64,000 bases of DNA from Sialis fuliginosa (Eukaryota; Arthropoda; Insecta; Megaloptera; Sialidae). A program made the position numbers and the translations under genes. Each line of letters starts with the position of its first letter. Positions within the stretch are counted from its first letter, which is position 1. The DNA is taken from positions 16,244,001 to 16,308,000 of the forward strand of contig OY540812.1 in assembly GCA_961205875.1 (NCBI GenBank). The letters run 5' to 3'. The notes beneath the pieces were generated by a model that saw only the letters and a program-made list of their open reading frames with translations, did not search any database and was not told the DNA's origin. Positions 26,501 through 60,182 of the stretch are shown here, piece after piece.

Positions 26501-27821
26501 ACTAATCCAGATTCAAGTTTAGTAGAAATCAATGTACCCAAAATTGTAGAAGAAATTATTAAATCTGAAGAATCTACACAACCAGATAAATGTGAATCTG
26601 CTGATGTAACCATTACTGATGAAACTACTAAAGATGAAAATTCAACAATAAATAAAGAAGAAGTGCCTGAAACTTTATCCGTTTCCGTAATAAGTAAAGA
26701 GCGATGGGATGCAATTGAAGCAAAATTAAATCAATCAAACTTGCTTAACATTGATTATGAGTCATATGGATATGATAATGAGACAACGCCTACTAAAAGT
26801 CCATCAAAAATTATTTATTCAGATGACGAAGAAGATTGTTTGTATTTCAATCCAAAATCTAGTCCAGCCACTGAAAGATATTTGAAACGTATAGCAACTT
26901 TACAAAAACTAGGTCCAGATGTTAGTGTGTCAAAAATGCTTTTAGAAGTGGAAAAAAATCAGGCAACTGATGCTAAAGTTGATAGGAGGTCACGTAAACC
27001 AAACACAAAATATTTAGCGGATTTTGATATTGAAACAGACGACATTGTCGAAACTAAACATGAAACAAAGTTATCTAAATCACTTAACAAAAAGAAAAAT
27101 GTTGATATTGATAATTCTGAAAATATTTCCAATGATAATAATAATGTGAAGACAGATATTCATTTAAAAAGTTAGTAAGAAACTGATAATTTGTTATAAA
27201 TATATTTGATATCATGTAGTAGTATTAATTAATATTTTTTATAACAGAAATTTCAAATGAAAAATCTACAATAAGTTCTGTAAGCCCATTGTCTTCCAAT
27301 AACGATTTAACTAAACAACGTCTAGCGATCAAACCAGTGAGGAGCGCTACTAAAAATCGCAAGAAAAAGAAATCTGAGCAGACTACAACTGGTAAATTAT
27401 ACTAACTTTAATAATCTGTTTTAGATTTTTATATATGTTTATTTTTAGCACTTGAAACAAGTTTAAATGAATCATTTTTTCTTCCACCAAGTCCTGAAAG
27501 TGATGTATCTGCTTCTTCAGCTGATCTTAAGACAACTGCAAATAAAAGAAAATTGTCAGATCCTGAAGTTGTTATGCCAAAACAGAATAAACCTGAAAGA
27601 GGTATAAATTTAATATTATATATGTTTTTATATACTTATAATTAATGTACTAAATAACAGATAAGAAATATATTTATTGACGTTTTTTATCAACAGCAAC
27701 ACGGTCTTCCAAGACAGCTACACAAAGATATTCAAGTGATGATCTATATAAACCAAGACCCTTATTTGCAAGCAGTAGACGATCGAGAGGATTATCTAGT
27801 AATTCAACAACATTAAAATAA
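23515..27821 (+). CDS. BOD1L: BOD1 / BOD1L1-type protein with N-terminal Shg1 domain
   Basis: Family members carry an N-terminal Shg1 (FAM44/BOD1) domain. They act with SET1/COMPASS H3K4 methyltransferase, in chromosome biorientation and in protection of stalled forks. Exons: 23515-23771, 23851-25754, 25812-26149, 26468-27170, 27248-27391, 27449-27601 and 27697-27821. All phases agree, giving 1,207 residues. Residues of about 10-120 carry the domain (DHIVGELKFQGIFDQFRREC, NLRQRVEGNVSGFL, ETGVERIVDQVV, VEDVVYKYLGI). The rest is disordered: an acidic Ser/Glu/Asp part, then a Lys/Asp/Arg/Ser-rich stretch (about 24840-25560), then SP-rich and basic C-terminal pieces. A length near 1,200 fits insect members rather than the roughly 3,000-residue vertebrate BOD1L1. 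Confidence 0.9.
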
Positions 27822-29098: not shown

Positions 29099-31508
29099 TT
29101 ATTGTTTTTCTTTATTTTCTTCTTCCTCCTCTCGATTCTTATTCGGATCATCTGGCTTCATTGCTGGAAACAGTAGCACTTCCTAAAAGATAAAAGATTT
29201 ATATAACGATAAATATGTTCATGCGGTCAATAATGTAACAAACATACCTTAATATTATTATTGTCGGTTAAAAACATTGTAAGTCTATCAATACCAAGTC
29301 CCCAACCAGCTGTCGGAGGTAAACCATACTCTAATGCTACACAAAAATTCTCATCAACCATTTGTGCTTCATCATCGCCAGCTGCTTTATCTTTAGCCTG
29401 TTGTTCAAACCTTTCTCTTTGTACAACTGGATCATTTAATTCTGTATAAGCATTACACAATTCTTTATGCATTACAAACAATTCAAACCTCTCTGTAAGA
29501 CCTTCGTGTGTTCTATGCCACTAAAAATAAAAATAATTCAATTTTTTGTTTGGTGGTAGTATTTTAATTATCAGGGTGTTAAAATATACGAAATTTTAAG
29601 AGCATACTGCTTAAAACTAAGTTTTATCATCATGGGTTTGTAAACCAATCCTTAGATATGAGTAGTCTAGAATTTTGGTAAATTAAATGAATTTATTGAA
29701 ATGAGGTATTTGGTCTATAGTTTTAAAATAACTTACTTTAGCTAAAGGACTCATAAACTGAGGATGATCTGTTATAAATGTTGGATTAAGAATTTTCTCC
29801 TCTAGAAACTCTCCAACAAGTTTGTCCAGCAACCTTGCAGCTGTTCTTGGAGGTGGACATTCAACATTGTGCTTAATGCATAAGTTATCTACGAACTGCG
29901 TTCCTGCAGAAGTCGCAAGTTCTGTTGCTGATGGAAATTTGATATTTAATTCTTTTTCAAGTGAAGGTATCATTGGAAGTCGTTTAAATGGTGGAGTAAA
30001 GTCTATATCTACAGCCTCTCCTTCTGGACCATCAGGATGGTACTGTATTTTATAAGTACCGTAAATGGTCTTTACCATACCTAAAGATAAGTAAATTAAT
30101 CGTTTGACAACAAGATAATATTATTAGTCAAATACCTGATATCATCTCTTCAGTTAATTGCATGAGATCATTGTAATCCGCATACGCCATATAAAATTCA
30201 CATGTTGTAAATTCAGGATTATGCGTCATGTCAATTCCTTCATTACGAAACAGCCTTCCTATTTCATAAACACGATCAATACCTCCAACTATCAACATCT
30301 TATGATACAGTTCAGGTGCTATCCGTAAAAATAGATCCATATTGAGTTCATTATGATGTGTGACAAAAGGTTTGGCACAAGCGCCACCTGCGATCATGTT
30401 CATTATTGGTGTTTCCACTTCAAGAAACCCGTGGCCATCCAAAAACTTACGCACATATGATATTATACGAGAACGAACATAAAAAATTTGCCGAACACGA
30501 TCATTGAGAATTAAATCAAGATAACGTTGCCTAAATCTTGTTTCTTTGTCCTTCAAACCAAAATGTAAGTGTGGTAACATGTGTAAGCATGGAGCAAGTA
30601 GAGTAATGCGTTTAGGGATGATTGAAAGTTCACCTTTTTTTGTTTTTCCTGGACGACCTATAAGAATTTATAATTTACAACATTAATATTTTCACTATCA
30701 CTTTACAATAAAATTTATTGAATTTTACTGACCTACACAGCCAACAATATCTCCCCGTCTAAGTTTCTCCAAATCCACTTGAAATGTTTCTTCAGATTCG
30801 AACATTTTAGCATTTGCCATTACTTGGAGTTTTACACCTTCACCTCTCAAATCATAAAATATTAATTTAGCTCCCGATTCACGTATAGCATGAATACGTC
30901 CTGAAACACTAACAATTTCATCTTCCAAAACTTGCCCGTCTGCAAGATTCCCATATTTCTCAAGAAAATCTTGTAATGATATTGATACATTAAATTTATG
31001 AGGATACGGATTTTGATTTGTTTGCTTCAATTGAGCAACAGCAAGTGATCTTAAGCGGAAAAATTCGTTAGGAGATATTTCCTCTTCTGTTTGTTTTTTA
31101 ACAGGTACTTCTTTTACAGGCGCCGCTGCTGCTTTATCGGCTTTCTCTTTGGCTTTTTGTTCAGTTTTCAAACGACGTTTCAGTTCACTATTTAAAAAAT
31201 AATATATATTTAAATTTACCTTCAATGTACCTAACTTCTATGTATTATTGCATCACCTCAAAATAAAAAAAGTTACCTTTTAGCGAAATTCCCACTATAT
31301 ACATATATTCCTCTACTATTAGACAAACTTATAGAACTTCTAACATATGTGATATTTTTTAAAAATCTTTTTAAATTTGCCATAATTTTAATTTACAAAA
31401 AAACCATAATACCGACAAAAAATATCTGAGGTAACCTCAATGAGCAGTTCCAAATTTTAACATTTAATTAGTAACATACCTCTTTGATATCTTCTCTGTA
31501 TCAGTCAT
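29099..31508 (-). CDS. KARS1: Lysyl-tRNA synthetase, class II (cytosolic isoform)
   Basis: It charges tRNA-Lys with lysine. Minus-strand exons: 31480-31508, 30733-31187, 30136-30657, 29737-30080, 29248-29520 and 29099-29182, giving 568 residues (human cytosolic form 597). The order is a Lys/Ala-rich N-terminal extension ([19 protein letters not shown]), the OB-fold anticodon-binding domain (about 60-165, with NPYPHKF and [16 protein letters not shown]), then the class II core. Motif 1 ends with ETP near 243, motif 2 is [19 protein letters not shown] near 298-316, and motif 3 is GLGIDR at 524-529. No catalytic residue appears lost. The cytosolic start ATG is at 31508. An alternative first exon at 31277-31383 would give the mitochondrial form. 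Confidence 0.97.
31277..31383 (-). CDS. KARS1: Alternative first coding exon: mitochondrial LysRS presequence
   Basis: Between the cytosolic first exon and the common exon 2, an ATG at 31383 opens 35 codons plus two bases and ends AAAAG followed by a GTAAC donor. This is the same phase, and the same final AG, as the cytosolic exon (AAGAG, then GTATG). Spliced to 31187 it reads in frame into SELKRRLK and gives a 594-residue protein. The encoded leader starts [17 protein letters not shown]. It has several Lys/Arg, many Ser, Tyr, Ile and Leu and no acidic residue, as expected of a mitochondrial presequence. In many animals one KARS gene makes both enzymes by such an exon choice. Confidence 0.85.
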
Positions 31509-32990: not shown

Positions 32991-35900
32991 TTATGGATAA
33001 CATTTTGTTTGATCGGTAGGAACAAAAGAACTTGTAGTCATTTTCATATCTGCAAGGCTTTTTTTGATTTTGTTTAGTACTTCTTCTTTTGGAAATTGTT
33101 CTCTTGTAAAAATCCACATATATTCTGTAAAGTGGTAATTATATATATATAAATATTTGTGGTATATGTATTACAAACACATTTAAAATTTCTTTTATCA
33201 TACGTGTGTTAAAGAAATAACCATCTTTACAAGTCCATAAAACCAAATGAGAATTATAATCTACATCAATCACATTGTAAAATTTTTCTTCATTAGTTAA
33301 ACCGCTAACGTCTAAAATGGATGTAGCATTTCCATCTGAATCCAAAACTAATTTCGCAACTCCAAATATAGATTGTCTACGAGCCAATCTAAAAACACAA
33401 CAGTATTTTATCTATTTTGATCTTTTTATAAGTAAAAAATGTATGACGATCAATATATACTTACATCTCATTGTACCCTGTGCTATTCATTATCACTGAA
33501 TTATTTCCAGCTGGGGTAATAGTCAATTTGACACAATCTAAACTTGCTTGAAGTAAATGAAAATATTTTTCTTGTTCCCACCATATTCCTATGCTCTGAC
33601 GAACAAATTGAATTATAGATAAATTCTATCTATTTTTTTCTAATTACATGTATTTATGCTTTAAATTCTTATATTGGCATTGCGTTATAGTAGAAAATAA
33701 AATAAAATATGAAGCTTCAAATTTATTAAGGGCAGATAAATATATTTTTTTGTTCTTGTTCATATAAGGGAGCGTCCATTAATGACATAAGGATGATTTT
33801 CAAAATTTTTAACTTCCTCTGCCTCCCCCCATGTAAGGGTTTGTAAATATAAGGTGACACCCTTTCATTAGATTTGTTTTTTAATATACCTATTTATACA
33901 GGTAGCAAAGTAAATTGATTAAACAAATTTTAATTGACTTAATATATTATGAAAAAACAATTACAACAACCGGAACTGATTTTAATTAACATATTTTAAA
34001 ATAATTAATTGAAAAATACTTTACGTAAGTAACATTTTTGAACCCCCTCATCCCTGAAAACCTTACATGATTAATGAACGCTCCTTAAACAAAAACATAA
34101 TATGTGTGTACAGTACTGTACAGACAAAATGTAACGTATGAGTAAATTTCCTAAACTGTCGTAAGTCACAAAGTCATGACCATAACATTGTTATATATTG
34201 GTATAAATATGTAACTATATAAAATATATGTTATATCTAGACAATCCGCAGATTGACCAATCTCTTTGGTCAAAGCCTGAAATAGATTTAATTTTTGGCC
34301 TTTGAATGGTGTGTTTTTGTAGTCAATCCTAGTAGGGACTAAACCAGCTAGTCAAAGATAGAAATTAAAATAATCTAGATTTTAGTTTTACAGTTGAGTA
34401 GTAATTGTATAAGATAAAAATACCACCTACAAGAAAATTAAAGAAAAATGAGTAAGCAAAGTGTCGCAAGGTAACACGAAGGAGCTGTTTATAAAAAAAA
34501 TAAAAATGTTATAATTGGAAATCTTAATTTTTCTTATTTATTTTTCATATTAAAATTGATTAGGCAAGGCCTGAAGTATTTTTTTATCTATACATTACAT
34601 GCAGCTAAAGGCTGAAATATAAAATTGTCTCAAACTTTGACCAAGCACGGTCAATTTTCTGGATCGACCAGTCAAACTGAGGAATATAACCATGTGTCAG
34701 ACGTTGACCGTAATATATATAGATACTATCAGGCATAGCTAGAGTTTGTTGCGCCCAAGGCAAGAACTTGAATTAGTACCCCTTATCATTACTGCAGAAC
34801 TTTTTTTTGTTCATCATATAAGAGTCAACACCTCCTATGAGGTTATTTTTTCATTCCCCTCCGCATTGTGTCTCCCTTAGCCAGTGGCGTAACTAGGATT
34901 TTTTTGGGAGGGGGGGGGGGGCAAAATAAAAAAAAACGATTATTTTCAAATTAACTCTTTTTTCACTTTCATTTTAAAAAAGTTAGTCTGGTGCAACTAA
35001 ATATTCTTTGGATACCAAATTGACTATCCCTATATATTGATATTATATTTTTCTGTCTCTGAGTATTAATATAAACTATAAACTTATAATTATGTTCTGT
35101 GCTAAAAACTATACCTATATAAAGACATTTAAACATATTTTGTGTTAATATGTATTTAATAGAAAAGTGAAAGTATAATTATAACTATTTTTGTAATATA
35201 TATTATACTCAGATATTATGTACTTAATTGTGGTGGGATAAAATAATTTTAAGAAATAAAAACTATGACGTATGACGCGCGCTTCGTACATGTAGAGGTG
35301 CGGTTACATCAAGCACGCCGCGCCGCGCTGCGCTGCGCCGAGCAGTTCGGCGAAGCGCGGCGCGGCGCAAAACAAAAAATTGGGGATAGAGGGGATTTGT
35401 CAATCTACATTAGTGTTTTTGTAGGTTCCATGATTAGTTCGTCATGAATTGCGATACAACTGTTAATTAATTAAACATTCTCAAATACATTAATACCTTG
35501 ATCTGTACACATCGATTTCTTATTATACTTTAGAATGACACCAATCACTCATTTTGTCAACTACAATACTGCAATTCAAAATTTCAGTTAAAAATTCTAC
35601 AACCCGTTTAAACTGAACGCGCACGAACGTGCATTTTTCTTTGATGTACCGACTCCGAGCGGATCGTAAATGTACGCGTACGAACATGCGCGTTTGTGCG
35701 CATTCGTGCGCGGTTTACCGTTCAAATCAGACATTTTGCGTGTTCGGCGCAGTTCGGCGCAGCGCGGCGCGCTTGATGTAACCGCACCTTAGCATGTAGT
35801 TGTTAAAAAAATCCCGCCAAAATTTGGAAAGGCACTGATTTAAATGCATCAATATGCATATTTTCATATTTGTAATTAATTATATACCTATGTACAAGGT

Positions 35901-36333
35901 GGGGGAGATATGAATGAAAATGAGTATATAATGAATGTAATGAGTAATCTCAAATTTTAAATGATCACATTAATATTTCTGAAATAAGTATACAATCGTT
36001 TTTTCAAAATACAAATATTAATTAACCGTTATTTTAGTTTTTTAAATCTTAGTGGACCCGCAAGATGGCCAGGAAAAAAATAAAAGCGGATATACGTTGT
36101 AGATTTCCGGTTAATTTTAAAATTTAAATCGAAATAGCAAAAGAGGAAATATAATATAAATACGAATATGTTATTAAAAATAATTAGTTACTTACTTTTG
36201 TTAATTCAAAATTTTTAACGCCGTTTATTGTAGGGCAAGTACCTGGACCAGACACCTGCGCATTACATAATATATTATTCTGATTTAAAAATATTAAAAT
36301 GACTGCAAAATAATTTAATATTTTTACGAACAT
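32991..36333 (-). CDS. Secreted lipocalin, apolipoprotein D / Lazarillo-like
   Basis: Lipocalins bind small hydrophobic ligands in an eight-stranded barrel. Minus-strand exons: 36196-36333, 33465-33595, 33204-33388 and 32991-33124, giving 195 residues with all phases matching. A hydrophobic signal peptide (about 1-25) is followed by GPGTCPTINGVKNFELTK, the family's G-x-W motif (GIWWE, 49-53), NVIDVDYNSHLVLWTC and the strand-H region WIFTREQ. Four cysteines at 33, 67, 143 and 193 fit the two disulfides of the ApoD/Lazarillo group. Two N-glycosylation sequons (NNS, NST) lie near 77-85. Intron 1 is 2.6 kb and carries several MITEs. The exact orthologue is uncertain; a bilin-binding or lazarillo-type protein is equally possible. 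Confidence 0.82.
33766..34087. mobile_element. MITE of the GGAGCG/ATTAAT TIR family, copy B
   Basis: Left end AAGGGAGCGTCCATTAATGA then CATAAGGATG; right end CCTTACATGATTAATGAACG then CTCCTTAA. The ends are imperfect inverted repeats over about 27 bases, with TA at the borders. It is related to 11350-11655. The interior has the C-rich CCTCTGCCTCCCCCC and CCCCCTCATCCC patches often seen in such elements. Confidence 0.6.
34882..34921 (+). repeat. hAT-like terminus with G12 run
   Basis: CAGTGGCGTAACTAGG followed by T-rich sequence and an uninterrupted G12 (34910-34921). The first 16 bases look like a common hAT-type end. A matching opposite end and target duplication were not located, so it may be a fragment. 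Confidence 0.4.
35296..35791. mobile_element. MITE with GC-rich, GCGCCGC-repeated termini
   Basis: The 19-base perfect TIR, AGGTGCGGTTACATCAAGC, starts at 35296 and its inverse ends at 35789. Just inside each end are tandem GCGCCGC/GCGCTGC and GCAGTTCGGC units. Flanks ACATGTAG (35288-35295) and GCATGTAG (35792-35799) match in 7 of 8 bases after a two-base TA at the right end, suggesting an 8-bp duplication. GC content is far above the surroundings. The open frame at 35265-35447 is a by-product of this composition. Confidence 0.65.
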
Positions 36334-37581
36334 AGTTTTGTTTAAAACACGTATAATATACACAACAAATATATATTTATTTAAAAAATATGATTAAAAT
36401 ATATAGTTGGATATGTGTGTATATATATACAACTTTAGTACGTGCGTTGGTATATTAATGAACTTATTTGAATTATAATCGTTAATAAAATTTAGTAAAA
36501 TAAATATGTTTTATTACTGATATTAAGTTATGAATTAATGAACTGAATAAATACAGTACTGTGATACCTATAGAAATATCATATCATAAAGTATGAAGCA
36601 ATAATAAAATAAATTATATTATTATACCCTACAAAAATGTTTAGAAGCACTGCGATAAATCAAATAACGTCCGTCCCGGGCAAATGTATTCACGTCATCT
36701 ATGATGCAAGCTTCGTAGGGTGTTTCCAGAAAAAATATGATAACGTGAATTTTGAATACTATAATATGGAATTTTAGAAATACTTAATTAATGTAGCTTT
36801 AATACATACAAATTGAGTGTAGCATGTATATTCGTGTATTTATTAATTTTATAAAAATATACTATTCATTAATATTATTTATTTTTATATGTTGACAATT
36901 TAATGAGCATTGAAAAAATTGAAATCAGTCTGTATAAAAAAGTTAGTTAAGAAGTTAGTAGCGTCACGAATATTTGAATGATTTGAATAAAATTGAACTG
37001 ATTTAACCGTTTTGAGTTTCCCACTAAAATGAGGCCCTATACATGCACAGTTAATCTGTGTTCCGTCAGATGTCATGTCATATATTTGTGTTGTGAACAT
37101 AACCTGGTAGTAGAAAGAAAAGTGCTATTTTGTGATCGCATCGATAATATTTTACAAATGTGAATGTGTACGTTAATAAATACAATCAAAAGTTAACAAC
37201 GTTGTGTACATGTAGATGTTTATAATTAAGGGATAAATAGATGTGGACATCGACCTAAATATGAACTTGGTAAATATCATAATGTAAAATAAGACGCCAT
37301 TATGAATACTCCAAATGATAAGGTCAGAAGGAGTACTTTTAATTAATTTTATTTGTTTGACCAAGTAAAAAACAACTTGATACTAAAACAAATCATTGAT
37401 ATTGATATGTTTAAATAATTCATCACATATTTATTGTTTATTTTTTTATGCATCAATGTTGAATGACTCACTGAGAGGTCAATTTAGCTACATCTGGCTG
37501 AAGTGACCAATTTCAGTATTAAACAGAGCATCTATCCTTACTAAAAATGCTTTTTGTTTTTATTACAGTATTGACAATGCT
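36334..37581. promoter_or_regulatory. Divergent region between lipocalin and the giant-protein gene
   Basis: 1.25 kb between opposed coding starts. It should hold both promoters and a 5' non-coding exon of the downstream gene, since an acceptor (TTACAG) ends at 37568. No specific element could be called. Confidence 0.4.
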
Positions 37582-40500
37582 ATGGAGCCAACAATTAAAT
37601 GTAAGTATTTATTCTGTGTTATGAAATTTTGTAAATAACATATTAAATGGTTCTTGTAGCAAACAAATGGTTTCCGAGTAGTGTTAAATATATCAGGAAC
37701 CAATCGTTGACCTTAGAGAATTTCCAAAATGAGTGTCGAAGATTCGTTATTTGCAATAGAAGACCAGAGAGGGCCCATAATTTAGTTAGAAATTTGAATC
37801 AACGATTACTGTAAGTAAATTTTTAAATTAATTATTTTCTACGTTCTTTGTTTATGTATCAATGCAGATATATTTGTTTACATAGTTCCTGACTAAGATG
37901 TAGGTTCTATTTATGAAAAGTCAGTTATATACATATATGCAGTATATAAATATGCTGATGATATTTATAATATGTATACAATAAAGTACTACGGGTATTT
38001 TGCAGGGACTTGAACTTACCCGTAATGAGTTGCAAATAAGATTTTTGTAAAAACACCAAATCGACTGGCGCAAACCAGTTTGAACCAATTCACTATAAAT
38101 GCAGTTATTTTTGTGAAATTGCTCTATAGCAGTGTTTCCCAAACTATGTCTGCGGAACACTGTTGTTCTGTGGAAAGTGAATAAGTGTTTTGTGAAAAAT
38201 GATTCAAATTAATATTAACATGTTTAAAATTCATACCCTGATTTAAATTTACTTATTTATGTTATATATTACCTACTTACAAAATAACCAAGGCGTTCCA
38301 TTAAAATTTCAGGATTTATAAAGTGTTCTGTTGTAAGAAAAGTTTGGGAAATGCTGCTCTATAGTATCGTGAGCAGTATAAAAGTTTTTTATGGTGAAAT
38401 ATCTTTTTGTGGGGGCTCTAGGTAGCTTTTTTTATTTTGACATATATAAATAAGTGTATATGCACCAAAATTAATAACTGTCCAATAATTTTCGGGAGTG
38501 AAGCTAGGGGTTATTTTAGTTCAAAACGAGGACTCTGCTGCTACGAACCGTTTTTAAATACTAGACATTTGACTCACATTGTCACAATATCAACGTGTGT
38601 GTAATTTGCAGAAGGATAATTAACAAGTACCTTTTTTTATATTCTGTAAATTATAAATGGAAAACCAGAATCAAACTGGTTAAATCAGAGAAAATTAAAA
38701 ATATTTATATTTAATGTTCTGTGGGTCGAATTGAACCAGTGATTCCAAAATACAGTGGAACTTTATTATTGCCGGCATTGCTCTTATTCCTTTATTGTTA
38801 TTGTCCAGCTTCTAACATGATTATTGTCCAATTGTTTACCACTTTTTGATATTTTGTTAACCGATCATAGTAATGTTTGTCGCGCCCTAGTCTGCGCGTT
38901 TTACTCTTCATATAGAAGTGACAGTTCATACACGTATACGCTTGTCTCATTTTTATATGTATTCTACGCATATGTATTCGTATTGACTCTATACGAGTGA
39001 GGGGAAAAAACTTGGAGTGGGAAAAAATACAAGGACACAGTATTGAGGTATTGTTGCCTCGATTGATGGACAAAAAAAAATTTCAAACTGTGAACCAAAC
39101 ATGAACTGTTTTTTTTTTTTTTTGGCAAAAATTGTATAAATGGGCACCACTATAGTTCAGTTATACTTAAAAAGCTGGAAATTATTTTTGTAAATACTGT
39201 TTTTACAAACATTAAAAATAATAAAAATCGTATCTCTTGGTATTTTATAATAGGTGTCGTAAACAATTATTTAAGGAGGTCGGGTAGTCACTTTTGTGGG
39301 GAAGGCGGTGCGGGGATAGTCCTATGTTTTTACACAGTACACAGTGTTCGCTGTTGCCAACACTGCACAATGGCATTGCTGTTGCCATATACGCATTAGT
39401 TTCAAATATTAATTCATCATTCGACCTATTTTTCAAATTTCTTATGTTGTTTATTTAATAATGGTATGGTCAAATATGTCATTCTTGTTTAAATAATTAC
39501 AATATCTACTTTACAATATCCTTAATTTTCTTAAAAACGAGTTGGTCAAAAAAATTGAAATTTCAGTATCTCATTTTAAACAATTGTGTGAAATTTTAAC
39601 TTATTCCTACTGGTTTGACGTAACTACCTAACCTCCATAAACATAGTGTTTGTACATTTTTAATAATTTTTATTTATTTCTCTAGCAGCGGTTGGAGTTT
39701 CTTTGAAAAAATGAAACTACAAGATGAATTTGAAAAATTTATTGCTTATTTTTTTTATTTAATTATTTATATTAATCCAAGTTAATTTTTTTCTTTAATA
39801 TTTTATAAATATGCATAGTTCATATTTTGTTGTCAGAATCAGTTAAAAATTAGAATTTAAAATATTTCTATCTAGAAAAGCAAGGAAGAAGAATGAAGAT
39901 ATTTAGAAGAATGAAGAAAGAAGATTTTCAAAATTTTTTTTTTTTAATCAGAAAAACAATAAAAACATTAATTGCAAATTTCATATAATTTTTCCATTAC
40001 AATTTTCATATTTTTAATAAATTAATAATTACAAAATACTTTCAAACGTAATTTGTTTACATCATTTTGAAGATGTCATTAATAATTCGGTATATATTTT
40101 TGAAAAGAATATGAATAACAACAATAAATGCATTACAGAAATATAGAACAAGAAATTCAAGAAGGACTCTGGCAACCAACACAAGCAGTAAAAGATGCAG
40201 CACTTGATCAGATACATCAATTACTTGCTGATATTAATGAGCAATTTGAAAAAGAGGTAATGTTTATTGTAATTCTCTATACTAGTGGTGTCAAATGAAC
40301 ACAGCTCACCAAATTCAGTTTAAGAAGTCTGCGGACCGCAGAAAATAACATTTCAATTTTACATTTATATTTTTAAAAATTAATTTACAAAAATTAATAA
40401 AAGAATATATTAACATATTTTTTTTAAATCCCTATTATTTTAGTAAAATAATCAACTGCAAGTTTTGAGTTACGGGCCGCATTTTAGGTTCTATTGAACC

Positions 40501-43500
40501 GCATGTTTGGCACCACTGCTCTATACCATAATTACTTGAATTTAACAGGTAGCGGTAGCGGTGCGCAAACTGTATTCAGGTGAGGCCATGCGAGTTGCTA
40601 TCACAGATCGAACACATTCGGATTTAGTCGTGTCTTCCGAAAGGGCAGTTCTCTGCCGTACTGACTAAGTCAAATGTGTCTGATCTAAACATAAACTGTC
40701 ACTGGACTCACATGAATATAGCTCGTGCACCGCCACTGACAGGTAGTCATATTCTTTTGTGCTTTGGCTCGTCATGTTCCAATCACACGAAAGTAATGTT
40801 TTTTTGTAGTGAAATTGTGTTGATAGTTCAAAGTGGGCAGGAAAGCATATGGTATTTGACAGTGGTATGACGTCAGAAAATATGTTACATGTCAAAATAT
40901 TTTATCTCTATTGGTTTGTTTCAGTTTGTTGAATAGCAATACCACATGACTTTAAATGAGTTTTGGTAGGAAATTTTTCATTTGAACAGAAAAAAATTAT
41001 TTTTAGCGTTTTTTCGGCATTATTTTGGAAAAAAAAATGAAAGAAGTATCTATTATATACATACGTACAATTTTCAATATATTTTAAAATTTAGTCAAAT
41101 ACCCTATTAGTTCTACATAAAATTTATAAGAATATATGTATATCTAATATTAATATTTAAATTGCTGCAGATTTTTTTTTATATAAAATGCAGGTAACGT
41201 CACGTATAGCCGATTTTATACCTCCATTATCTCAGTAACAAAATAAACTACATAAAATCAGTTTCCAGATTTAAATTGTACATTTATCATGGATCATTTT
41301 AATGTGCAAAAAAAATGTGGAACTTATGTTTACACATCACTGCACGAGTGTCCAGCAAATTTTTTTCTATAATAATAGGATGAACCCAATAAATTATATT
41401 TCGGCAACTGCCACGCCGATTTGTTTGAAGTAATAAAACCCACAACAGTGTTTCCTCTTTGAAATTCATTTGTGCGTGATTTTGAATTTTTTTATTAATA
41501 TTTGTGATTGTTCTGTGGTTGTCTGCAGTCAATACTAACCACAAGCAATCACTAAAAGTGGTTTGCGTGTGGTCAATTCCGCTAACAGCACAACCACACA
41601 ATAACTAAATAATCTTAAATATGTGGTTATTATATTCATTGTATAATCAGTGCTAACAATGTAAAAATATATATTACCCATTCTGTATTAACATAATGAT
41701 GTAACGTTTCTTCAAAACAAAAGAGAGATGCAGTAGCGTTGGGATATATCTATATCATTTTTCTAAGAAGAATGAAATAGTTACACAATTTAAATAATGC
41801 ATCATTATATGGAAATGCAGTGAAATTTCTCAAACTGCCCACTTATTCCATACAACCCCATATATAAAATGACCAGTTAATATAATTCTTCCCAAATTCT
41901 TTTAGTAACTGTAGCGTAGTGACCAGAAGCAGTTTTAATGGTAGATAAAAAGGAATATAAATATATTTTAAATTAATACATTTAGGATATTAATTAATGA
42001 AATCAAATGCAACATTGTCTATATTAGTAAAGTATGACTTGTCCAACTCAATGTTGTTTACATTAGTAAGATGTGACTTAGTCCAATCCAACATTTAAGG
42101 AAACAACACTAGTAATTTTGTTTTTCATACAAATTTTTATATGGTCACTTTACACTTTCTTATGCTTTACATTACTGTTTAAAACTATTTAACCATGTGT
42201 TTTGAAGCAGTTAAGTTTTTAATTTTATCAAAATTAATTAAATTTATTTGCAGTTGCTGGAAACGGATAGATTACATGCTGAGTTGATGACAGATGCATT
42301 GGCGACTGCCGTCCAGCTTGAGCTGAGGTTCAATTCAGTTCGAGATAAAATGACGGAAGTCGCCAAACGAGCTCTCGTCTATCTGCACATCATGCTTGCT
42401 GGCAGGCCGAGACATATGATGACTACTCTGCTCAAAATCAAACTACCACCTAAGAGTGACAGAGAAGGGCACATAATCTATCATATATTTAAGTAAGTTT
42501 TTTCTTTTAAATTAAAAATCAATGTGCATTTGTAATTTATATTTTCATATTATTTCTAGAAAAATTCTATGGAATATAAAGGCATATGATTATGAAGCTG
42601 AATTATTTACTGTTGCTGCACTAGCGTACAAGCGATGGTTAAATTTAACTAAAGTTCTGATTAACCTTAACATCAGAGAGGAAAGCAAGAAACACTGGAG
42701 GGAGGTGTGCGATGAAATATATAATAGAGCCTTCACTCAGTTACCGTTCCTCAGTAATAATATTGCTGATTTAAGGTATTTATAAATTTTAATTTCTACC
42801 TAGTTTCAAAGAAATTTGGAGTGATAGCAAATATATGTATCCAATACTTTTTATCACTTATTTTAATGTAAAAAACCCAGACATCAATTTATTGGTCATC
42901 AAAAAATATATTTCCGGTGAAACTGGAAGTCAGATTAAAATAAAATACTTATAGCAGTTTTCATTAGGTCTGTTGATGAAAAAAACTTACCGAATATGAT
43001 ATTTTTTAAATGATTGCAATTTCTGGCATTATGGTTAGGATTTTTATTGTAAAAGTTTTATAATAAAAAATTTTTTTTATAATAAAACTAATAAAGAATA
43101 AATTTAAAAAAATAATAATAGCTATTTAATTTCATAGGTACCAGAGATGCTTTAGTCCTAAGTTAAATTTTCCTGTAAAAGATGTAAGGAAGGTTATAAT
43201 GAAAGCCAGTTATCCTGTTTCACAAGTTTATGAACTGATAATGAAAATAAACTTTAAGGAGAACCGGTTTATAAATAGCAAATTAAAACAGAATACCATA
43301 TCCACAGTAAGTATTTATTTACATTAAATTAAATCGTATAATACCAGCATTACAGCAATAAGATTGTAATTATATTTCTTTTTCAGACGCAGGACGTCCA
43401 CGCTAAAGTATCGAGGCCGGTTTCAGTTGCAACCGAAGTAATTTTCGTTTCTGATGATGAAGACGTTGTTATTATAGATGATGTACCTGAGACTTTGGAT

Positions 43501-46500
43501 TTAACAAGACATAGTGATAGTGAAATAAATGATAAGTTAAGTGCGCTGCCACCTGTGACTGTAAATTCATGTAAATCAAGTAGCAGTGGTAGTAAATTCA
43601 CTCAGGAGCAAACGTGTAGTGTTGATAGTGCAGCAAGATTGTCGAACATTTCAAATGTCAGCATAGAAAACCAAACTGTGGTAAAAACATTGAAAAGTTC
43701 TGAAGAAGATTGTGGTAAGGAAAGAAGATTGTCGTTAAAAGAAACTACCATTCATGATAATGAAGAAGAGTTAATTAATGATAATCTAGTGAATATTAAA
43801 GACCAAAATGTAGATGTTGCGGTTTTAGATAATTCTTTAGAACAAAATGCCAATTGTAATAAAGAAGAAGCTATAAATATTACTACAGAAATATTTGAAC
43901 ATAAAAGAACAGAAAAACATTTGTTAAATATTTCGTTAGAAGAAAAGAGCTTTAAATGTGAGAAAATTCTTATTAATGCAGATATTCTTAAAGACGAAAA
44001 ACAGAAAATTGTTTCAGACAAATCTAGATGTGTTACTACAGAAATATTTGAACATGAAAGAACTGAAGAACAGTTTTTAAATATTTCATTAGAAGAAACA
44101 AACTGTAATAGTGAGAAAATTCATAGTAAAAAAGAAAACATAGACGTTCTTAGAGAAGTAGAAGAGAAAATTGTATCAGACAAATCTATAAGTAATACTA
44201 CCGAAGTATTTGAACATAAAAAAACTGAAGAACAGTTGTTAAATATTTCGTTAGAAGAAACGAACTGTAATAGTGAGAAAATTCTTAGTAATACAGAAAA
44301 CATAGATGTTCATAGACAAGAAAAAGAAGAAGAAGAGAAAATTGTATCAGACCAATCTATAAGTGATACTACCGAAGTATTTGAACATAAAAGAACTGAA
44401 GAACAGTTGTTAAATATTTCGTTACAAGAAACGAACTGTAATAGTGAGAAAATTCTTAGTAATACAGAAATCATAGATGTTTGTAGACAAGAAAAACAAG
44501 AAGAAGAGAATATTGTATCAGACAAATTAAGAAGTGACACTACAGAAATATTTGAACATAAAAGAACAGAACAGTTCTTAAATATTTTGTTAGAAGAAAA
44601 GAGCAGTAATAGTGAGAAAATTCATAGTGACATTACAGAAAAGGTACATGTTCTTAGAGAAGAAGAAGGAAAAAGTATAACAGAAAGAACAATTTCTGTT
44701 GAAAAAGAAGATTTAAATCATCAAAATATTCAGGAGAGACTACTTAGTATTTCTTCAAATATAGATGAAGATAAAGAATCATGTTCAACTAAAAAATTGA
44801 AAGATTTAAATCATAGAAGAGAACAAAGATTATTTAATGTTGAAAAAAGAAATGAAACCAGTTTATTTAATTCTTCAAAAGAAAATAAAGAAGATTACAA
44901 TGAGAGATTATCACATGATTCTTTACAAGAAAGATTACAGAAAAATACTGAAGATGAGAGTAAAAATTGTAATTACAAAATAAACAGTTACAATGAAGAG
45001 ACTAATTTAAGGTTATCTGAATCGTTAACCGTTTATAAGAAAATTAATATATCTAAAGATTCTTCTGAGGAATTGGGAGATCACAACAATGAAAGATTAT
45101 TAAAAGATTCAGAAAGCACAGATAGATTATTTGCTGGTTTAGAAAAAACAGTTTGTAACAATAGCATAGAAACATCAATAGAAAATGTGACATCTCAAAA
45201 TTTTTCAAGTAATTTGTCAGAAAATATCCACAATGAGTTTTCTAAGAATTGCCAATTTCATACAACAGATCGTGATTTGATTTTTAAATATATGGATTCG
45301 ATTTCAGAAGAACTACAGACAAATGTACGTGTACTTAAGAATTCTAATTTATGTCAGACTGCTAACAACATAAATAATACAAACATAAAAGTTGACTCTA
45401 AACACCAGATAGACAATTTAATTGTTGAAGAATCAAGTATCATCATAGCTGAAGAACTTACAAAAAATGATACTGATGATGTTTCAAATGAAACCGATTA
45501 TGACTATGATCCAAGTATACTTCAGGTAGAATGGCAGAATACAGAACGTTCTGATACTATTGGTGAATGTGATGTTGAATTATTTTTACAAAAAAATAAT
45601 TTGCAAGTAGAGTTTTTAAGTAAAATTAGCTCTATTGCATTACAGCAGCCAAATAACATTGAAAATGAAGAAAACAATTTAACTATTGACAACGTAAAAG
45701 AATTACATAAAAGTGTTACTGCAATTGAATTAAATGAAATTAAATGTAACACAAGTACATCACAGAACGAATGTTCGAATGAATATGAATGTAATTCAAC
45801 AAATAATTCAGATATGAGTTATGTTGTATCTGAGCAAATGAATATTAATGTCGATAGCAACTCTGATATTAATGTTGAGAGTAATTCAGATATTTTTACA
45901 TCAAAGAAAATAAATGAAGATGGTAGTTTTCAAGAATATTTTCTCAAAAACAGAGTATCAAGTGAAGAGAAGTATAAAAATGATGAAAATGTAGTTACAG
46001 AGATAACCGATTCTAATAATGTGTACAGTGAAATTGTATCTACTTTTCAAGAAACACAAGAAAATTCTGTAACCAGAAAAAGTGAAACTTTACTACCAGA
46101 TATAGAAGAAGAAGTTATTACAATTGAAGTTCCAGAAGAAAATAACGAAGTAGAAATTACAACTCATTTTGAATGTCCAGAAGATGATGACGTATCTTCA
46201 AATGAAAATACAAATGATTTTGTCCGCATAGTTGAAGAATCAAACGTTGAAAGTACATCAGAAAAGTGCATAGAGAACTGTAACCGAATGGAAGAATTAA
46301 TTGAAACCATGAAAAATATCTCGATAAAAGATGTTAATAATGATTTAATACATTCAGGATGTACTGTTGAAAATTTAAATGAAAATAATGTAAATGTCAA
46401 TGTAATAGACATAGAGCAGCGTGAAGAAAGTAATAATGTATTGAATATTAATAAAAATGAAAGAAATACAGATGATTTAAATATAGAAACGAAAGATGAA

Positions 46501-49500
46501 AACTCATGGAAAGATAATGCACCAGAAATAATACAAGAGACAGGAAGAAACAAAACTACAATAGAAGTCACAGATATTTCTGAAGAAGTGGAAGAAAAGT
46601 CAGTGGACAAAAACATTTGCCGTTTCTTAACAAACACAATTATAACAGAAAAAGAAGAAGTTAGTGATGGCAATGAGAAAAACAAGATAATAGAAGAAAG
46701 ATTAAATTCAAAAGAAATATTCAAAAGTACAGATGATTGTGAAATTAAAGAAAATGTTATAACAGAAGGGTTAGATGAATATATTATTAATGAAAATTTA
46801 ATGGATGAATCAATAGAGGATAAAGGTGGAGGTAGAACGATGATAGATTTAATAGAAACAAACACAGTTGAAATTTGTAGTAATAAAAATATAGAAGTAG
46901 AAAATACTGAAGTAATAATAGTTACGGAAAATATAGAAATTAATAATGAAGTAAAATCAATTGAAAATGAACGTTCATTTGGTAACTTTAAAAAAGAATC
47001 TGATTTTACACTAAATAATATTTCAGAAAAACAAAATAACATTTCTGAATCTATCAATGCAAATATTCTAACTGTGAATTTGACAAAATCATCACCAAGT
47101 AATCATACCGAATATTCCGAAAGTAATTCAAAAGTTTCTATGCATTCACAAATAAACTGTGATTCATCACCAACAGAATCAGGGTATTTAAGTGACACAG
47201 ATTGTCCGAGAATTATTTCGGATACTGAAAGATACGAAGATGAATTTAAAGAAACCGATAAATCTTATTCGGGTTGTATATCAGAAACTTCAAACGACTT
47301 CAGTGTGAATAAAATATGTGGAAACACAGTCACAAAAAATGATTTTATGTTTGTTTTAGAGGAGAAAACATTAAACATATCTGATAAAAATAAAAATGTT
47401 ATCTGTAAAGGAAATAATTATTATTTGAAACAGGAAAATTTGGATAAAGAATGCAAAGAAAAATTTTCAGATGTCAATACAATCTTAACTTACGATACTC
47501 CAATAGATTTACATTGTTCAACTGTTGAAGAAACTGTTACAACTGACAATCCTATAGTGCATGATAATGATAATGTATATGAAAATAATATTTTTTCTGA
47601 CGAAAATTCTGTAAGTTCAACTGAAAAAGTCAAAAATGATGAAAATGTACATATTGTCAACGATGAAGACAACATTACTAAATTATCTGAAGATAATAAT
47701 AAAGATGAATTACAAGATGATAATATGAAATCTAAAGTCATGCATTTATTAGAAGGTGATCGTATTAATTCATCAAATAAAAAAAAGGATAAGTTATATT
47801 CAAATGAAAATTTATCCCCAACAACTGATAAGAAAATAATCCCTAACGTAAAACCAGAAAATAGTTTAAAAATCATACCAGAATTAAAATCAGAAAATAG
47901 TCTAGATATTCTTGCAAGTTGTGCAATAAAATGTATAGAAAAAAATCAAGATTCATTTAGTTGTGAAAGTTTTAATGAAACTCATGTTTGTATACAAGAA
48001 AATCAAACTGAAATTGGAGATTTATTGAATTCTACGGAAAAGATTATTGATAGTAAAGAAAAAAGTTATCAAGAAACAAAGAATGATTTAACAATAAACT
48101 GTTATAATGCAAAGAATTCATTAAAAACATTGGCCAGTAAAAAGTATTATGGCGATAACAAATATTCAACAAATGAAAATGATACGGATAAAAAATTAAA
48201 TCAAAATCAATCAAATTTAGAAGATAATTTAATGAACAATGATTATGTAATTAATTTAACTCCACCTTATTCTCATACTGATGTAATGCAAAAACCAGTT
48301 CAAAACAGTCTCTTGGCAATGATGCCAATTCTTGGTGTGCAAACTCCTCCTGATGTTAGTGAAGATAATTATATTAATGAAAAGGAAACCATAATCATTG
48401 CAACTGATAAATACGAATTAGTGTCAGATCCAGAAGATAGCGAAATAAATATCGACCAGAATAAAATAAAAAGAAAAATAACATCTGAAAATGTAATTGA
48501 TTTGAATACAGATAAAAAAAATAATTGTTTATCAGAAGTTACAATCAAATCCGAAGAAATAAGAAATAAGAAACATAAAAATCATGATCGAGGTGATAAA
48601 TATGAGAGGATTTCTAGAAAGAATGAAATCAAAGTTACTAGACCTAATGTAATTTTATCTAAAATGGATGTTTCTAAAAAAGAAAATAATCAAGAAATTA
48701 AAAATAAACACACAACAAAAATTAGTCACATTAATAATAAAAAACCACATAAAGAAAATAACATACATCAAATTAAAGAAAATAAATATTCATCAGATAA
48801 TAAGTTACAATATAGTGAAACTATTTCAGAAAATTTAAAAAGTGCTATTTTACATACAACCAAATCATGTAAACATTTTGACAAGTTAGAAAATAAAAAT
48901 ATGTTTGATGCAAAAAGTGTAGCCTGTGTAGAAAAAGCAAAAACATTAAATAATATGAACTCAAAACTAACATCAGAAAAGGTTTCAAAATATCAAGATA
49001 CAGAAAAGAAAATACAAAAATCAGAAGAACTTGTAATTGACACTAAATTAAATTCAAAACTCATTAAAGATAAATCAGAAAATTGTTATCTTGAGAAGAA
49101 AAAAGATAATGTGAAGGTATTTAAAACAACTGAAATACCAAAAATAGAACCAGTAGAAATAATAAATGTAGAAAAATATTCTCAATCTAAAGAAAAACAT
49201 GTAAAAACACATTTACAACATTTTGAAAATAATAAAGAAAAATCAGATGTTGTTCAAGACAATTTAAAAGAGTTAAGAAAATCGAAAAATCAAGTAAAAT
49301 ATAAAAACATTGTAGAAAAAGACCCACTGAGTCTTTCTTCTGAAGAATCTGAAAAATATGATGAATGTAAAAATGTAAATGAAAATAAATGTATTTTAAC
49401 ACAAAACAGGGATTATTCAAAATATAATGCCAGAAAAATAAATTGTAAATCTACCAAGAATAATAAAAGAGAAGATAAAAAGTACTCTTTAAACTTATCA

Positions 49501-52500
49501 TCAAATAAAGAATGTTCAGTAAAATTAGAAACCATAAATAAATCAGAAAAGAATCAAAGATTTAGAGAACCATATTTTATCGATCCTTCAAGGCTTTCTT
49601 CCGATGATACTGGGGAATTTTCTGATAATGATAATATAAAACGAAAAAAATTACCTGTTATTAAAATAAAAGTTGGAAAAAATACTCGACGAATTATTTC
49701 TAAGTTTGATAGAAATTCAGATGACTTTCATAGTGATCATGAGAAGAAAAAAATTAAATATGAAAATGTGAAGAAAATACGTAAAAAGAAAAAGAAGAGA
49801 TATCACAAAGATACAGAATTAAAAAAAACAGAAAGTATTATAATTAATCATTTAGAAAAACTGCGTAGAAAAGATAGAACTAGAAAATACAATTTATTAA
49901 CATCTGATGAACCTGAAATACAATCATTTTGTTTAAAAAATGAGTTAATTTCAATTAAAGAAGATAAAATTAATAAAAAATTAAAAGACAACCTATTAGA
50001 AAACAGTCAAACATTATCAAAATTAAATAAGAGTGATCAACAAATTATAAAATCAAATTCTGACAGTGATATTAGACAGAATACAAAGAAAAATATGCAC
50101 CTGGAAAAGTCTGTAGAAATTTTAAAAACACAAATAACAAATCCTGTAGAAAGTCTAAAGAAACATAAAAGTGAAGAAACAAGTACAGAAATCAAATTCA
50201 ATTCAAAGAATGCTAATGAAAAATATAATTCACCAGAAATATCTCAGAAATCTCTTTTTTTGTATAAAGATGATCAAAGTCTTGTTGAAGACCGTAAAAC
50301 TGTCACCTCTAAAGTTGTAGAAACTAAAAAGGATTCAGATAAACAATTAGTTTCAGAAAATAATGAGGTTAGTAAGAATATTATAGAAACCAAATGTGAA
50401 ATATCTATTAATACTAAAAAACAAGATGAAGTATTGAAGAATAGTAGTGAAACTTATATAGACCAGTGTTTGGAAAAAGTTAAAAAAATTAAACCAATGA
50501 AATTAACATCAGAAGTTAGTAACAATAAACCAGAAATTTTCAGGAAAAATAAAGATTCAAGACAAGTTGAATTAAATAATTTAAAATTGAATGAAGATAG
50601 TAATGAAATTTCACGCAAAAACAAAAAATATGATGTTCAAGATAATGTAGAAAAGAAAGAAGCATTAAAAGATAATTCTGAATCATGTAAAACTATAGAA
50701 AAAGTTCAAGAACTTTTAAATGATGGAAATCTGATGAAAAATGATAATGAATCAATTTGTCTTAAAAATGAAAACACAGGGATTTTAAAAACTGAACATA
50801 ATAAAAGATCACATTCAAAAAGAAGAAAAGAAACTGAAAATATTGATAAAATTGACAAAGAACTGAAAAAATCTAACGAATTTACTGAAAAATTAGGATT
50901 GTGTGCTCAATTTTCTGAAGATGTAAATTCAAAAATAAGTGATACTATAACACCTATACAAGAATTAAAACCATGTTCTTACATAAAGAAGACTTCTGAC
51001 AATTTAGGATCAAATTTAAGTTCTGATTTCAATACAGGTAATATTTCCGATTTACTAATTGATAAGAAGCAGTCAAGTGTGTTAGAAATAAATAATGAGC
51101 TTGATGTAAAAAATAAATTGATTTCATTTAAAGAAGATAAAATTATTATAAAATTAAAAGAAAACCAATTAGCAAGTCAAACTTTTTTGAAATCAAATAA
51201 GAATCAACAACAAATTATAAAATCTATTGATATTAGAAAGAATTCAAAGAAAAATGAATATTTGGAAGAGTCTGCTGATAAAGAAATATTAATTACGGAT
51301 GTAAAATTGTCAATAAATCATGTAGAAAGTCTTATGAAAGATAAAGATGTAGAACAATGTAAAGAAATCAAACACTGTTCAAAGAAAGCAATTGAAAAAT
51401 ATAATTCACCAGAAATATCTCAGAAATATATTTTGTGTAAAGAAGATCAAAATATTCTTGAAAATAGTAAAACTTTTACTACTAATATCAATTATTCAAA
51501 AAAGCATTTAGAAAACCAATTTGTTTCAGAAAATAATGAGATAAGTAAGAATAAAATCAAAACTAAATGTGAAATACCTAGTAATACCAAAAAACAAGAT
51601 AATATATTGATGAATAACCCTGAAAATTATACAGAAAAATGTTTGGAAAAAGTTAAAAAAATAAATCCTATCAAATTAACATTAGAAGTTGATAATGATA
51701 AACAAGAAATATCCAAGAAAAATATGGATTTAAGACAAATTGAATTAACTAATTTAAAACTTAATGAAGAGAGTAATGAGAGTTCATGTAAAAACAAAAA
51801 ATATGATATTCAAGATAATATAGAAAGGAAAGAAGAATTGAAAGTTAAATCTAAATTTTACAAAAATATAGAAACAATTCAAGAACTTTTGAATGATGAA
51901 CATCTTTTGAAAAACGATGATTTAATTTCTTTAAAAAATGAAAATTTAGAGGTTTTAAGAGCTGAACATGAGAAGACAACTGACTTGAAAAAAAGAAAAG
52001 AAACTGAAATTATTGATAACCAACTAAAAAAATGTAAGAAATCTACTGATGATAGTGTTGCACCTATAGAAAGTAAATTGAAATCATTTTCTTCTATAAA
52101 AGACAACATAGAACCAAATGTAATAAATTTAAATTCTGATTCCAATAAAGTTAATAGTTCTGATTTACCCATTGATAATAAACAATCAAATATTACATTA
52201 GAAAAAAATAAGGAGTTTGGTAATGAAATGAAAGAAGAATTGAACAAAAATAATTCATTGGAAAATATAGAAGAAAATATATCTTTAGAATCAAGAAACA
52301 TTCAGCAAACTTATGTTTGCATTAATTTGGAGGTAAATAGAAAAAGAAAATCATCAATTTCAACTGAAAACACAAATGTTAAACGTATAAAGCATGAACA
52401 CATTACCAAAACAGAAAAAACAAATAAATCAACTGTGAATAATATCATTATAAATTCAAATACATCAGCTTGCCTTTCTATGCCTATTTTAGATGATGAT

Positions 52501-53650
52501 TTTACAATAGATAGTAACACAAGTCAGTGTTCAAATGCATCACAAAATTATGAAAATTCAAATGTAACAAATAACGAAAATATATTTGAAACATTATCAT
52601 TGAAGCAAAGTAAAAAAAGTAAATCTAAGATTCCTAAAACTTACGAAGTGAGAAGTAAAAAAGAAATAAATAAAAGTAATACTGATTGTAATTCTGGTGA
52701 ACTAATTGGTAAAAGAAGAAAATCCTCTTTTGATTCTACTAATAGTAAAGAACTAACATCCAATCCAGATGTAGAGAAATTGGAATCAGTAGAAAGCATA
52801 AATGCAAATGTCAACCAAGAAGAGATATCTATTGAAATCGATTCAAAAAATGATTCATTGGAAAATATACCTCTAGAATTAAACTCAGACATAATAACAA
52901 AATACATAATAAAAAATGAATCCAAGAACAAATATGATCCTGTTTGGGCATCTACGAGTAGTGAAATTCCAAATTATGATGGGGAACAGTAAGTTGAAAA
53001 ATATTTGTTTTACTATTAATTGTAAGTAAATTTATTTTAGATTAATTAACGTTTCTGTTGTTTCTTTTAGGAATATTAATATTTTTGAAGTGAATAATGC
53101 TTCTGAGGCTAATCAGTTATCTGAACAAAATGTTGAAGAGCACATTGGATATGAACCCTATGCTACTAACATCGATTACGAACTGGAATTAAATTTGGAT
53201 GAAATTGTGGAGAAGAAGGTATGTATAATATAAAATATTGTTTAATTTACAAACATATAAATATTTAATTGTTTTTCTCATTAGGAATTTATAAATATTT
53301 TTGTAAAAATCATAATAGAAGTGCCTTAAAGTAAAAGGCATGTTTTATTTTTTTTAATTTAGATTTTATTTTCTTTTTAGAATGTAGTCAACATGCCAAC
53401 TGACATAAGTTTTGTACTGCAAGAAGAAAATGAAACAGTATTATCGATGGACATGATGGAGGATATACAGAGTTCTGTTATAAATTATGATGTAAATCCA
53501 AAGACCATTACATTTGATGAAATGTTGAAAACAGATGAAGAATTTGATACAGGGTTTATTGCTGAAAACATTAACAAAACCATTCTTAACAATCATAAAC
53601 AGAAATTTAATTCTATAAGAGGTTTTTCTTCAAATAATATGATTAGATGA
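37582..53650 (+). CDS. Giant Glu/Lys/Asn/Ser-rich protein of unknown function (~3,643 aa)
   Basis: Not recognised. Exons: 37582-37600, 37660-37810, 40139-40256, 42254-42492, 42560-42775, 43138-43306, 43387-52988, 53071-53218 and 53381-53650. All join in phase, giving 3,643 residues, of which one 9,602-bp exon supplies about 88%. Residues 1-304 are mostly helical and well mixed (CRRFVICNRRPERAHNLVRN, KRALVYLHIMLAGRPRHMM, AALAYKRWLNLTKVLINL) and look like the only folded part. Residues 322-336 (VIFVSDDEDVVIIDD) contain two hydrophobic cores beside acids, like SUMO-interacting motifs. The rest is low-complexity and highly charged, acidic first and then basic (RKKKKKRYHK near 2440). It contains 51-57-residue tandem repeats and a roughly 320-residue duplication. 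A nuclear scaffold is my inference. The start is provisional because the frame stays open up to the acceptor before ATG 37582. Confidence 0.8.
37811..40138. other. Intron 2 of the giant-protein gene
   Basis: 2.3 kb. It contains a hAT-type MITE (38130-38356). The remainder is AT-rich with isolated ACCAGTTTGAACCA-like words (38070-38095). Open frames here (for example 38798-39073, minus) show no protein character I recognise. Confidence 0.6.
38130..38356. mobile_element. hAT-type MITE with perfect 8-bp TSD
   Basis: The ends CAGTGTTTCCCAAACT and its inverse AGTTTGGGAAATGCTG are flanked by CTCTATAG on both sides (38122-38129 and 38357-38364). 227 bp, non-coding. CAGTGTTTCCCAA is a widespread hAT-type end. 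Confidence 0.85.
40283..40518. mobile_element. hAT-type MITE with perfect 8-bp TSD
   Basis: The left end TAGTGGTGTCAAA and inverse right end TTTGGCACCACTG are flanked by CTCTATAC on both sides (40275-40282 and 40519-40526). 236 bp, non-coding. The target duplication nearly equals that of the element at 38130. Confidence 0.83.
40553..40738. mobile_element. hAT-type foldback MITE with perfect 8-bp TSD
   Basis: Flanked by ACAGGTAG on both sides (40545-40552 and 40739-40746). Arms of about 80 bases (CGGTAGCGGTGCGCAAAC.. against ..GTGCACCGCCACTG) are inverted copies with scattered mismatches around a 35-base centre. The whole 186-bp element could fold into one hairpin. Confidence 0.82.
41299..41601 (-). 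pseudogene. Fragment resembling PIF/Harbinger transposase N-terminus
   Basis: A minus-strand open frame of 100 codons contains KEETLLWVLLLQTNRRGSC followed by YWVHPIIIEKNLLDTR. This resembles the N-terminal RRYWVHP-type segment of PIF/Harbinger transposases. The DDE catalytic part is absent and no TIR was found, so this is at most a relic. Resemblance is from memory of the family and is short. Confidence 0.4.
42010..42096. repeat. Diverged tandem duplication, two units of about 45 bp
   Basis: CAACATTGTCTATATTAGTA and AATGTTGTTTACATTAGTA each lead into a TGACTT-GTCCAA segment. A related segment occurs in inverted orientation near 17410-17450, downstream of TEX10 exon 5, so this is probably a dispersed repeat fragment. 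Confidence 0.45.
43885..44640 (+). repeat. Tandem coding repeats of 51-57 codons in the giant protein
   Basis: Five units start with ACA/ACC GAA at 43885, 44038, 44200, 44371 and 44542 (spacings 153, 162, 171, 171, all multiples of three). Each encodes TE[IV]FEHKRTEEQLLNIS followed by LEETNCNSEKI and an acidic spacer ending IVSDKS. They correspond to residues of about 471-720. Units 3 and 4 are the closest pair, suggesting recent unequal exchange. Confidence 0.9.
49945..52045 (+). repeat. Large in-frame duplication inside the giant exon
   Basis: Two segments of about 950 bp, offset by 1,173 bp (391 codons), encode matching series. These include LIS[IF]KEDKI, QQIIKS, EKYNSPEISQK, SENNE[VI]SKN, CLEKVKKI, LNNLKLNE/LTNLKLNE, CKNKKYDIQDN, IQELLND and KRKETE. 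They cover residues of about 2,491-2,810 and 2,882-3,195. Divergence is substantial, so the duplication is old, yet the order of motifs is kept. Confidence 0.88.
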
Positions 53651-59564: not shown

Positions 59565-60182
59565 AACATATAGGTAAATTTTGTTACGTAGCATGTTCTT
59601 CACATGTTACATAACAGTTTCGTTTGGTGTTCATTGGTGTCACAAAAGTGACTCAGCCTGTGATTTATGACATTATGTTCCCCAGAGTTCAACAGCATTT
59701 TTTAAAGTAATCTGGAAATTTCTGTTTTATCATCTTTTTCATAATCAAGAAGCATGGTGGAAAGATACAAGAAGTATAATTATGCCACCTATGCTCCCTT
59801 CGATATTTTTCATAGAAGTCCAACGGAAGTCGCGAAAATATTCAAAGTTGGTAATTATGATAGTTTGATTTAGTTAGTTTCGTATTGTAAGGTTGGGAAC
59901 GTTGGGAACTGCTGTCTTCTTCAGTTTTGTTGGTTATAAATATATGTCAATTAGATTGATAGTTTGCTTACAAATGTTAAGAAAATATTAATTTGATTAT
60001 TGTAGAAATAGTTTTTCAAAATGATTTTAATCATATTCGAGAATTTAAAAACCCAAAAATATCTTTACGAATGTGATATAAGCTGTAATCTACAAATTTT
60101 TTAAAACTATTAGTGTATTTTCTTGTAGATATGTTTTCTGGAAGAATATTAATTTCTCTCAAATAAATAAAATATGTGAATC

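Follow-up and report, generated by a model that had tools for sequence, protein, structure and literature searches.

The stretch of Sialis fuliginosa DNA analysed here (64,000 nucleotides of contig OY540812.1, hereafter the window, lying in contig 4 of a genome searched as 392 Mb in 20 contigs) carries a gene of nine exons on its forward strand. Exon joins were rebuilt from splice signals, with all 8 introns GT-AG and in phase, and the spliced frame (37582-53650) of 10,932 nt comprises 3,643 codons and a stop, with 0 internal stops, in agreement with the nine in-phase exons that an original prediction had proposed for this DNA. The exons are as follows.

37582..37600, +, exon 1, coding part (MEPTIK); the exon itself runs from 37569, and its ATG is a possible start
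37660..37810, +, exon 2, splice-signal model
40139..40256, +, exon 3, splice-signal model
42254..42492, +, exon 4, a 79-residue fragment with predicted helices at 2-49 and 54-61
42560..42775, +, exon 5, holding with the end of exon 4 the highest density of W/F/Y/I/V/L/C/M (residues 171-210)
43138..43306, +, exon 6, where the head ends (residue 304)
43387..52988, +, exon 7, 9,602 nt, most of the probably disordered tail, from residue 305
53071..53218, +, exon 8, splice-signal model
53381..53650, +, exon 9, carrying the stop codon TGA

In its own frame exon 7 is free of stops, against 289, 562, 83, 207 and 269 in the five others, so the predicted 9.6-kb open exon is present. Given the stop rate of 6.9% in the introns of this gene, 3,200 codons would stay open by chance with a probability of about 1e-99; the corresponding figure for the remaining eight exons (441 codons), about 1e-14, is optimistic because exons get picked for openness. 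Judged by its open frame, the gene is real, and one gene model joining head and tail is supported. The ATG at 37582 is a possible start codon: exon 1 begins at 37569 after an acceptor, 13 bases 5' of the ATG, the frame is open that far, and the upstream donor with the best score lies at 37323.

Genome setting

Scanning one or two exons per gene gave domain matches for four neighbours in the window.

5759-8342, Apx/Shroom ASD2 domain
14073-14498, WD40 repeat
30128-30667, class II tRNA synthetase (D, K, N)
60180-63090, exostosin GT47 with GT64

A separate BOD1/Shg1 gene lies at 23494-27645 (+), with a PF05205 match at 23494-23802 (E 5e-16) followed by a 654-residue Ser/Lys/Asp/Glu-rich open frame (23828-25792) and further open frames. 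Upstream of the nine-exon gene lies a divergent gene (about 33000-36340, -) that, judged by eye, starts with a signal peptide at 36.2-36.3 kb or so and has the look of a lipocalin; the one exon compared with Pfam (33139-33411) gave no match. The GC-rich interval 35300-35780 shows apparent inverted copies at both ends by eye and may be a mobile element lying 5' of the nine-exon gene. Within intron 2, a repeat of about 124 bases (38238-38361) recurs at at least 39 further places with 80-86% identity, among 40 candidates scored.

The gene appears to be single copy, as far as searches of its own genome reach. The head as query returned exons 2-6 of its own gene and three weak matches (E 0.2, 0.8 and 1.0), two of which (L014 and L016, L015 being left out) lie in frames that by eye resemble a hAT-type transposase, and a 400-residue piece of the tail returned only itself at E 0.001. 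Runs of ten TTAGG units number 2,219 on one strand and 3,166 on the other, counted as overlapping places, and 0 for the reversed control; from what is established about telomeres, this repeat indicates an arthropod and most likely an insect.

The N-terminal head

The head (residues 1-304) differs from the tail in charge-hydropathy (+0.063 vs -0.116), helical moment (0.34 vs 0.20) and third-position GC (0.355 vs 0.163). AlphaFold, run on the 79 residues of exon 4 alone, placed helices at 2-49 and 54-61 (mean pLDDT 76, pTM 0.39), a model that is helical and silent on the fold. The original prediction took the first 304 residues to be folded; the first two of these head-tail differences and the exon 4 helix agree with this, but of the three 100-residue blocks of the head (charge-hydropathy -0.003, +0.175 and -0.017) two fall just on the disordered side.

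The same prediction had assigned the N-terminus to no family, and profile searches agree. No match exceeded the cut-off in Pfam (best E 0.027, another 0.053) or NCBIfam (best E 0.2), and nothing credible was found in PDB (E 0.4 in one search, no match in another). The best Pfam match, a Sas-6-like oligomerisation domain, covers 24 residues at 15.2 bits against a cut-off of 27. PADLOC found nothing on the head, exon 4 had no relative among plasmids and viral contigs, and exon 5 had none among prokaryote genomes. Within the libraries searched, the head thus appears to be without a relative.

An alternative is that the head comes from an established helical family (TFIIS N-terminal/LEDGF IBD, DAXX or another) and has diverged from it; the protein would then be an orthologue, with a long tail, of some nuclear factor already described, a kinship invisible to these searches. 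By eye, RLHAEL and MMTTLLKI of the head recall the LEDGF IBD, and a PAM250 alignment to that domain scored at a level reached by 11 of 400 shuffles, but the scores under BLOSUM45 and BLOSUM62 were reached by 79 and 106 of 400 (123 of 500 in another run). Models of TFIIS-N, LEDGF IBD and DAXX are absent among the head's Pfam matches listed up to E 10, a list from which HMMER filters drop most matches above about 0.1. In the insect's own genome, the single LEDGF match and all seven TFIIS-N matches up to E 10 (four over the cut-off) lie elsewhere than this gene. With hhalign, the score of the head against a small TFIIS-N/LEDGF-IBD profile was reached by 21 of 100 shuffles; the profile has six rows, one of which (L021) is a wrong-strand translation and therefore junk, and its member controls are not independent because the members sit in the profile. 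Stretches of human DAXX 55-392 (sequence checked against PDB) gave alignment scores reached by 123 to 285 of 400 shuffles, although pairwise tests of this kind, for IBD and DAXX alike, are insensitive to remote kinship. We consider the known-family alternative unlikely, yet the most serious of the competing readings.

Two specific assignments gained no support. TFIIS N-terminal (PF08711)/LEDGF IBD (PF11467) for residues 100-210 was dropped on the missing profile match, the own-genome searches, the hhalign result and the shuffled pairwise alignments. For DAXX, pairwise scores were at chance in the insensitive tests just described, and no Pfam match was listed.

Tail composition, duplication and constraint

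The tail (residues 305-3643) is rich in Glu, Asn, Lys and Ser, as first described. Compared with random codons of intron composition, Glu is raised 4.6-fold, Asp 2.5-fold, Lys 1.9-fold and Asn 1.8-fold, and Trp, Phe and Tyr fall to 0.1-0.28 of expectation; this surplus and deficit indicate that the composition is more than AT-rich drift. Third-position GC in the tail is close to the 0.161 measured for the long open frame of its BOD1-like neighbour. From composition, the roughly 3,340 residues of the tail are probably intrinsically disordered, and the expected lack of a recognised domain was confirmed by Pfam, which gave nothing above cut-off for exon 7, whole or in eight pieces (best E 0.049), or for exon 9.

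Net charge is -176 over residues 305-2000, +48 over 2001-2700, +4 over 2701-3400 and -28 over 3401-3643, and the cumulative charge ranges over 122, compared with a maximum of 83 in 1,000 shuffles. An order of charge along the chain, proposed originally as a switch from acidic to basic, is thus real beyond the shuffles, but its course is acidic, basic, neutral and again acidic, not a single switch.

Two stretches of the tail, both on the forward strand, are duplicated internally.

43882..44712, +, five tandem repeats (residues 470-746) with units of 51, 54, 57 and 57 and a fifth whose end was set at 58
49933..51081, +, tandem duplication, copy 1 (residues 2487-2869)
51106..52194, +, tandem duplication, copy 2 (residues 2878-3240), at a step of 391 residues

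The copies of the 391-residue step are 58.5% identical over 357 aligned codons, with Ks 0.38, Ka 0.24 and Ka/Ks 0.62 (bootstrap 0.46-0.86, 500 resamples), pointing to weak constraint. For the five repeats of about 57 residues, pooled pN is 0.163 and pS 0.165, and pairwise ratios range from 0.56 to 1.75 (6 of 10 above 1 and 4 of 10 between 0.56 and 0.74), so that no residue-level constraint is seen among them. Spacings in repeat families D1-D6 are all multiples of three. The in-phase spacings, the Ka/Ks and the near equality of pN and pS together suggest that these two stretches retain their frame, with a sequence that for the most part drifts. Constraint was measured in these two stretches of the tail only, and Ka/Ks between internal copies reports on the time after duplication, when redundant copies may be under relaxed constraint; the ratio may also be distorted by gene conversion.

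The strong selection originally predicted is therefore unsupported as worded: the open frame and the composition are kept, but in the two duplicated stretches constraint on the residues is weak to absent. The tail's exact sequence seems loosely kept, and its frame, charge order and composition kept; a precedent for selection on features of disordered regions rather than on their sequence is described in PMC6634968.

Short motifs

Of 20 motif patterns scanned, 18 had counts that 42 or more of 300 shuffles equalled or exceeded. The two rarer ones were a basic run at residues 2436-2442 (12 of 300) and SxIP, found twice where 0.6 are expected (29 of 300).

Drosophila HP2 (Su(var)2-HP2), which binds the HP1 chromoshadow domain, is a nuclear protein of very large size that is not known to contain a recognised folded domain. 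By that description it would resemble the protein here, from which it differs in that PxVxL-type motifs occur here at chance (4 vs 2.7 expected, 95 of 300 shuffles).

Lys/Glu-rich tails with tandem repeats are also known in cytoskeletal and centrosomal proteins, and the present protein might be of that or another non-nuclear repeat type. The two SxIP motifs and the weak Sas-6-like match would fit; the latter, however, is the 24-residue match below cut-off described above, and the basic cluster at 2436-2442 speaks against it. We regard a cytoskeletal or centrosomal role as improbable.

The original prediction further linked the protein to SUMO through a SIM-like motif, which lies a little past the head.

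43438..43482, +, VIFVSDDEDVVIIDD, SIM-like motif (residues 322-336) in exon 7

Its VVIIDD fits the ELM SIM pattern as quoted in PMC5098910, and VIFVSDDED does not because of its Phe. Under a stricter SIM pattern the tail holds one site, compared with 1.2 in shuffles (683 of 1,000), and ELM-type SIM cores number 26 where 25.9 are expected, both at chance. Among these 26 cores, 12 are followed by at least two Asp/Glu/Ser/Thr (5.4-5.8 expected), a count reached by 4 of 300 and 10 of 500 shuffles and, as a fraction of cores, by 5 of 500; no core precedes a basic pair (1.0 expected). Patches of this kind lie, among other places, near residues 1479, 1971, 2006 and 2283. The surplus is confined to the cut-off of two, since out of 300 shuffles 46, 269 and 143 matched or exceeded the counts at cut-offs of 1, 3 and 4. 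SUMO-acceptor consensus sites number 23 where 18.3 are expected (42 of 300). The named motif, taken alone, is therefore at chance, and what survives of the SUMO link is the array of SIM-like patches in the tail, a weak lead visible at one of four cut-offs.

These patches would be the core of a SUMO-reading chromatin scaffold, in which about a dozen of them bind SUMO-coated partners multivalently and the head serves as anchor. The 12 acid-flanked cores, the lack of any core followed by a basic pair and the motif placed directly past the head are in its favour, but the surplus at a single cut-off, the lone site under the stricter pattern and the acceptor count within reach of shuffles weigh against it, and we judge such a role rather unlikely. 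A fuller version is a longer shot still. In it, an uncatalogued helical head and a dozen acid-flanked patches make up a multivalent SUMO-reading chromatin scaffold found in arthropods alone, which would evolve through repeated in-frame duplication, with selection acting on charge and on how many motifs there are and not on sequence.

Interpretation

Two described proteins offer comparisons of layout. BOD1L1, a vertebrate protein of 3,042 residues, combines a helical N-terminal module that binds SETD1A with a very long C-terminal tail believed to be mostly disordered, and has roles in transcription and DNA repair (PMC12794331). The likeness here, a helical N-terminus with a very long, probably disordered tail (by its charge-hydropathy), is one of layout and not of family: Pfam found no Shg1 domain (PF05205) in the head or exon 7, and membership of the BOD1 family fails because that domain is missing from the head. 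The same paper describes BOD1L1 as restricted to vertebrates, with which the possibly long-tailed BOD1 gene at 23494-27645 in this arthropod would contrast.

GCNA also has an extended, repeat-rich disordered region that contains SIMs and conserves its general character, not its sequence (PMC5098910). The tail described here shares the length, the repeats and probably the priority of character over sequence, but it is mixed in charge, whereas mouse GCNA is strongly acidic (pI 4.17). Scans of the head, exon 7 and exon 9 gave no protease domain, zinc finger or HMG box above cut-off; a CIZ1-like zinc-finger match in Pfam (E 0.12) lies below it.

Our preferred reading, held with about even confidence, is that of a single-copy gene, probably of an insect, for a giant and probably nuclear scaffold, with a helical docking head and a disordered tail kept for its bulk properties and short motifs. 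Nuclear location, docking and multivalent partner binding are what we infer in it. The helical head of about 300 residues would dock on a partner or on chromatin, and the tail of about 3,340 residues would form an extended, charged tether that carries numerous patches of weak binding, acting through its length, its charge order and its short motifs (the acid-flanked hydrophobic patches and the basic cluster near residue 2436). The tail would grow by in-phase tandem duplication, with the sequence drifting and the frame and composition kept, as the two duplicated stretches suggest. A literature search returned nothing pointing to this gene, and absence from print is not claimed.

We take the gene to be real and unexplained, and not revolutionary. 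Its head would be an unassigned domain, and the tail may offer a clean natural case of what holds a 9.6-kb exon open while residues drift, in which the two internal copy sets would allow constraint on frame, charge and motifs to be measured apart from constraint on sequence.
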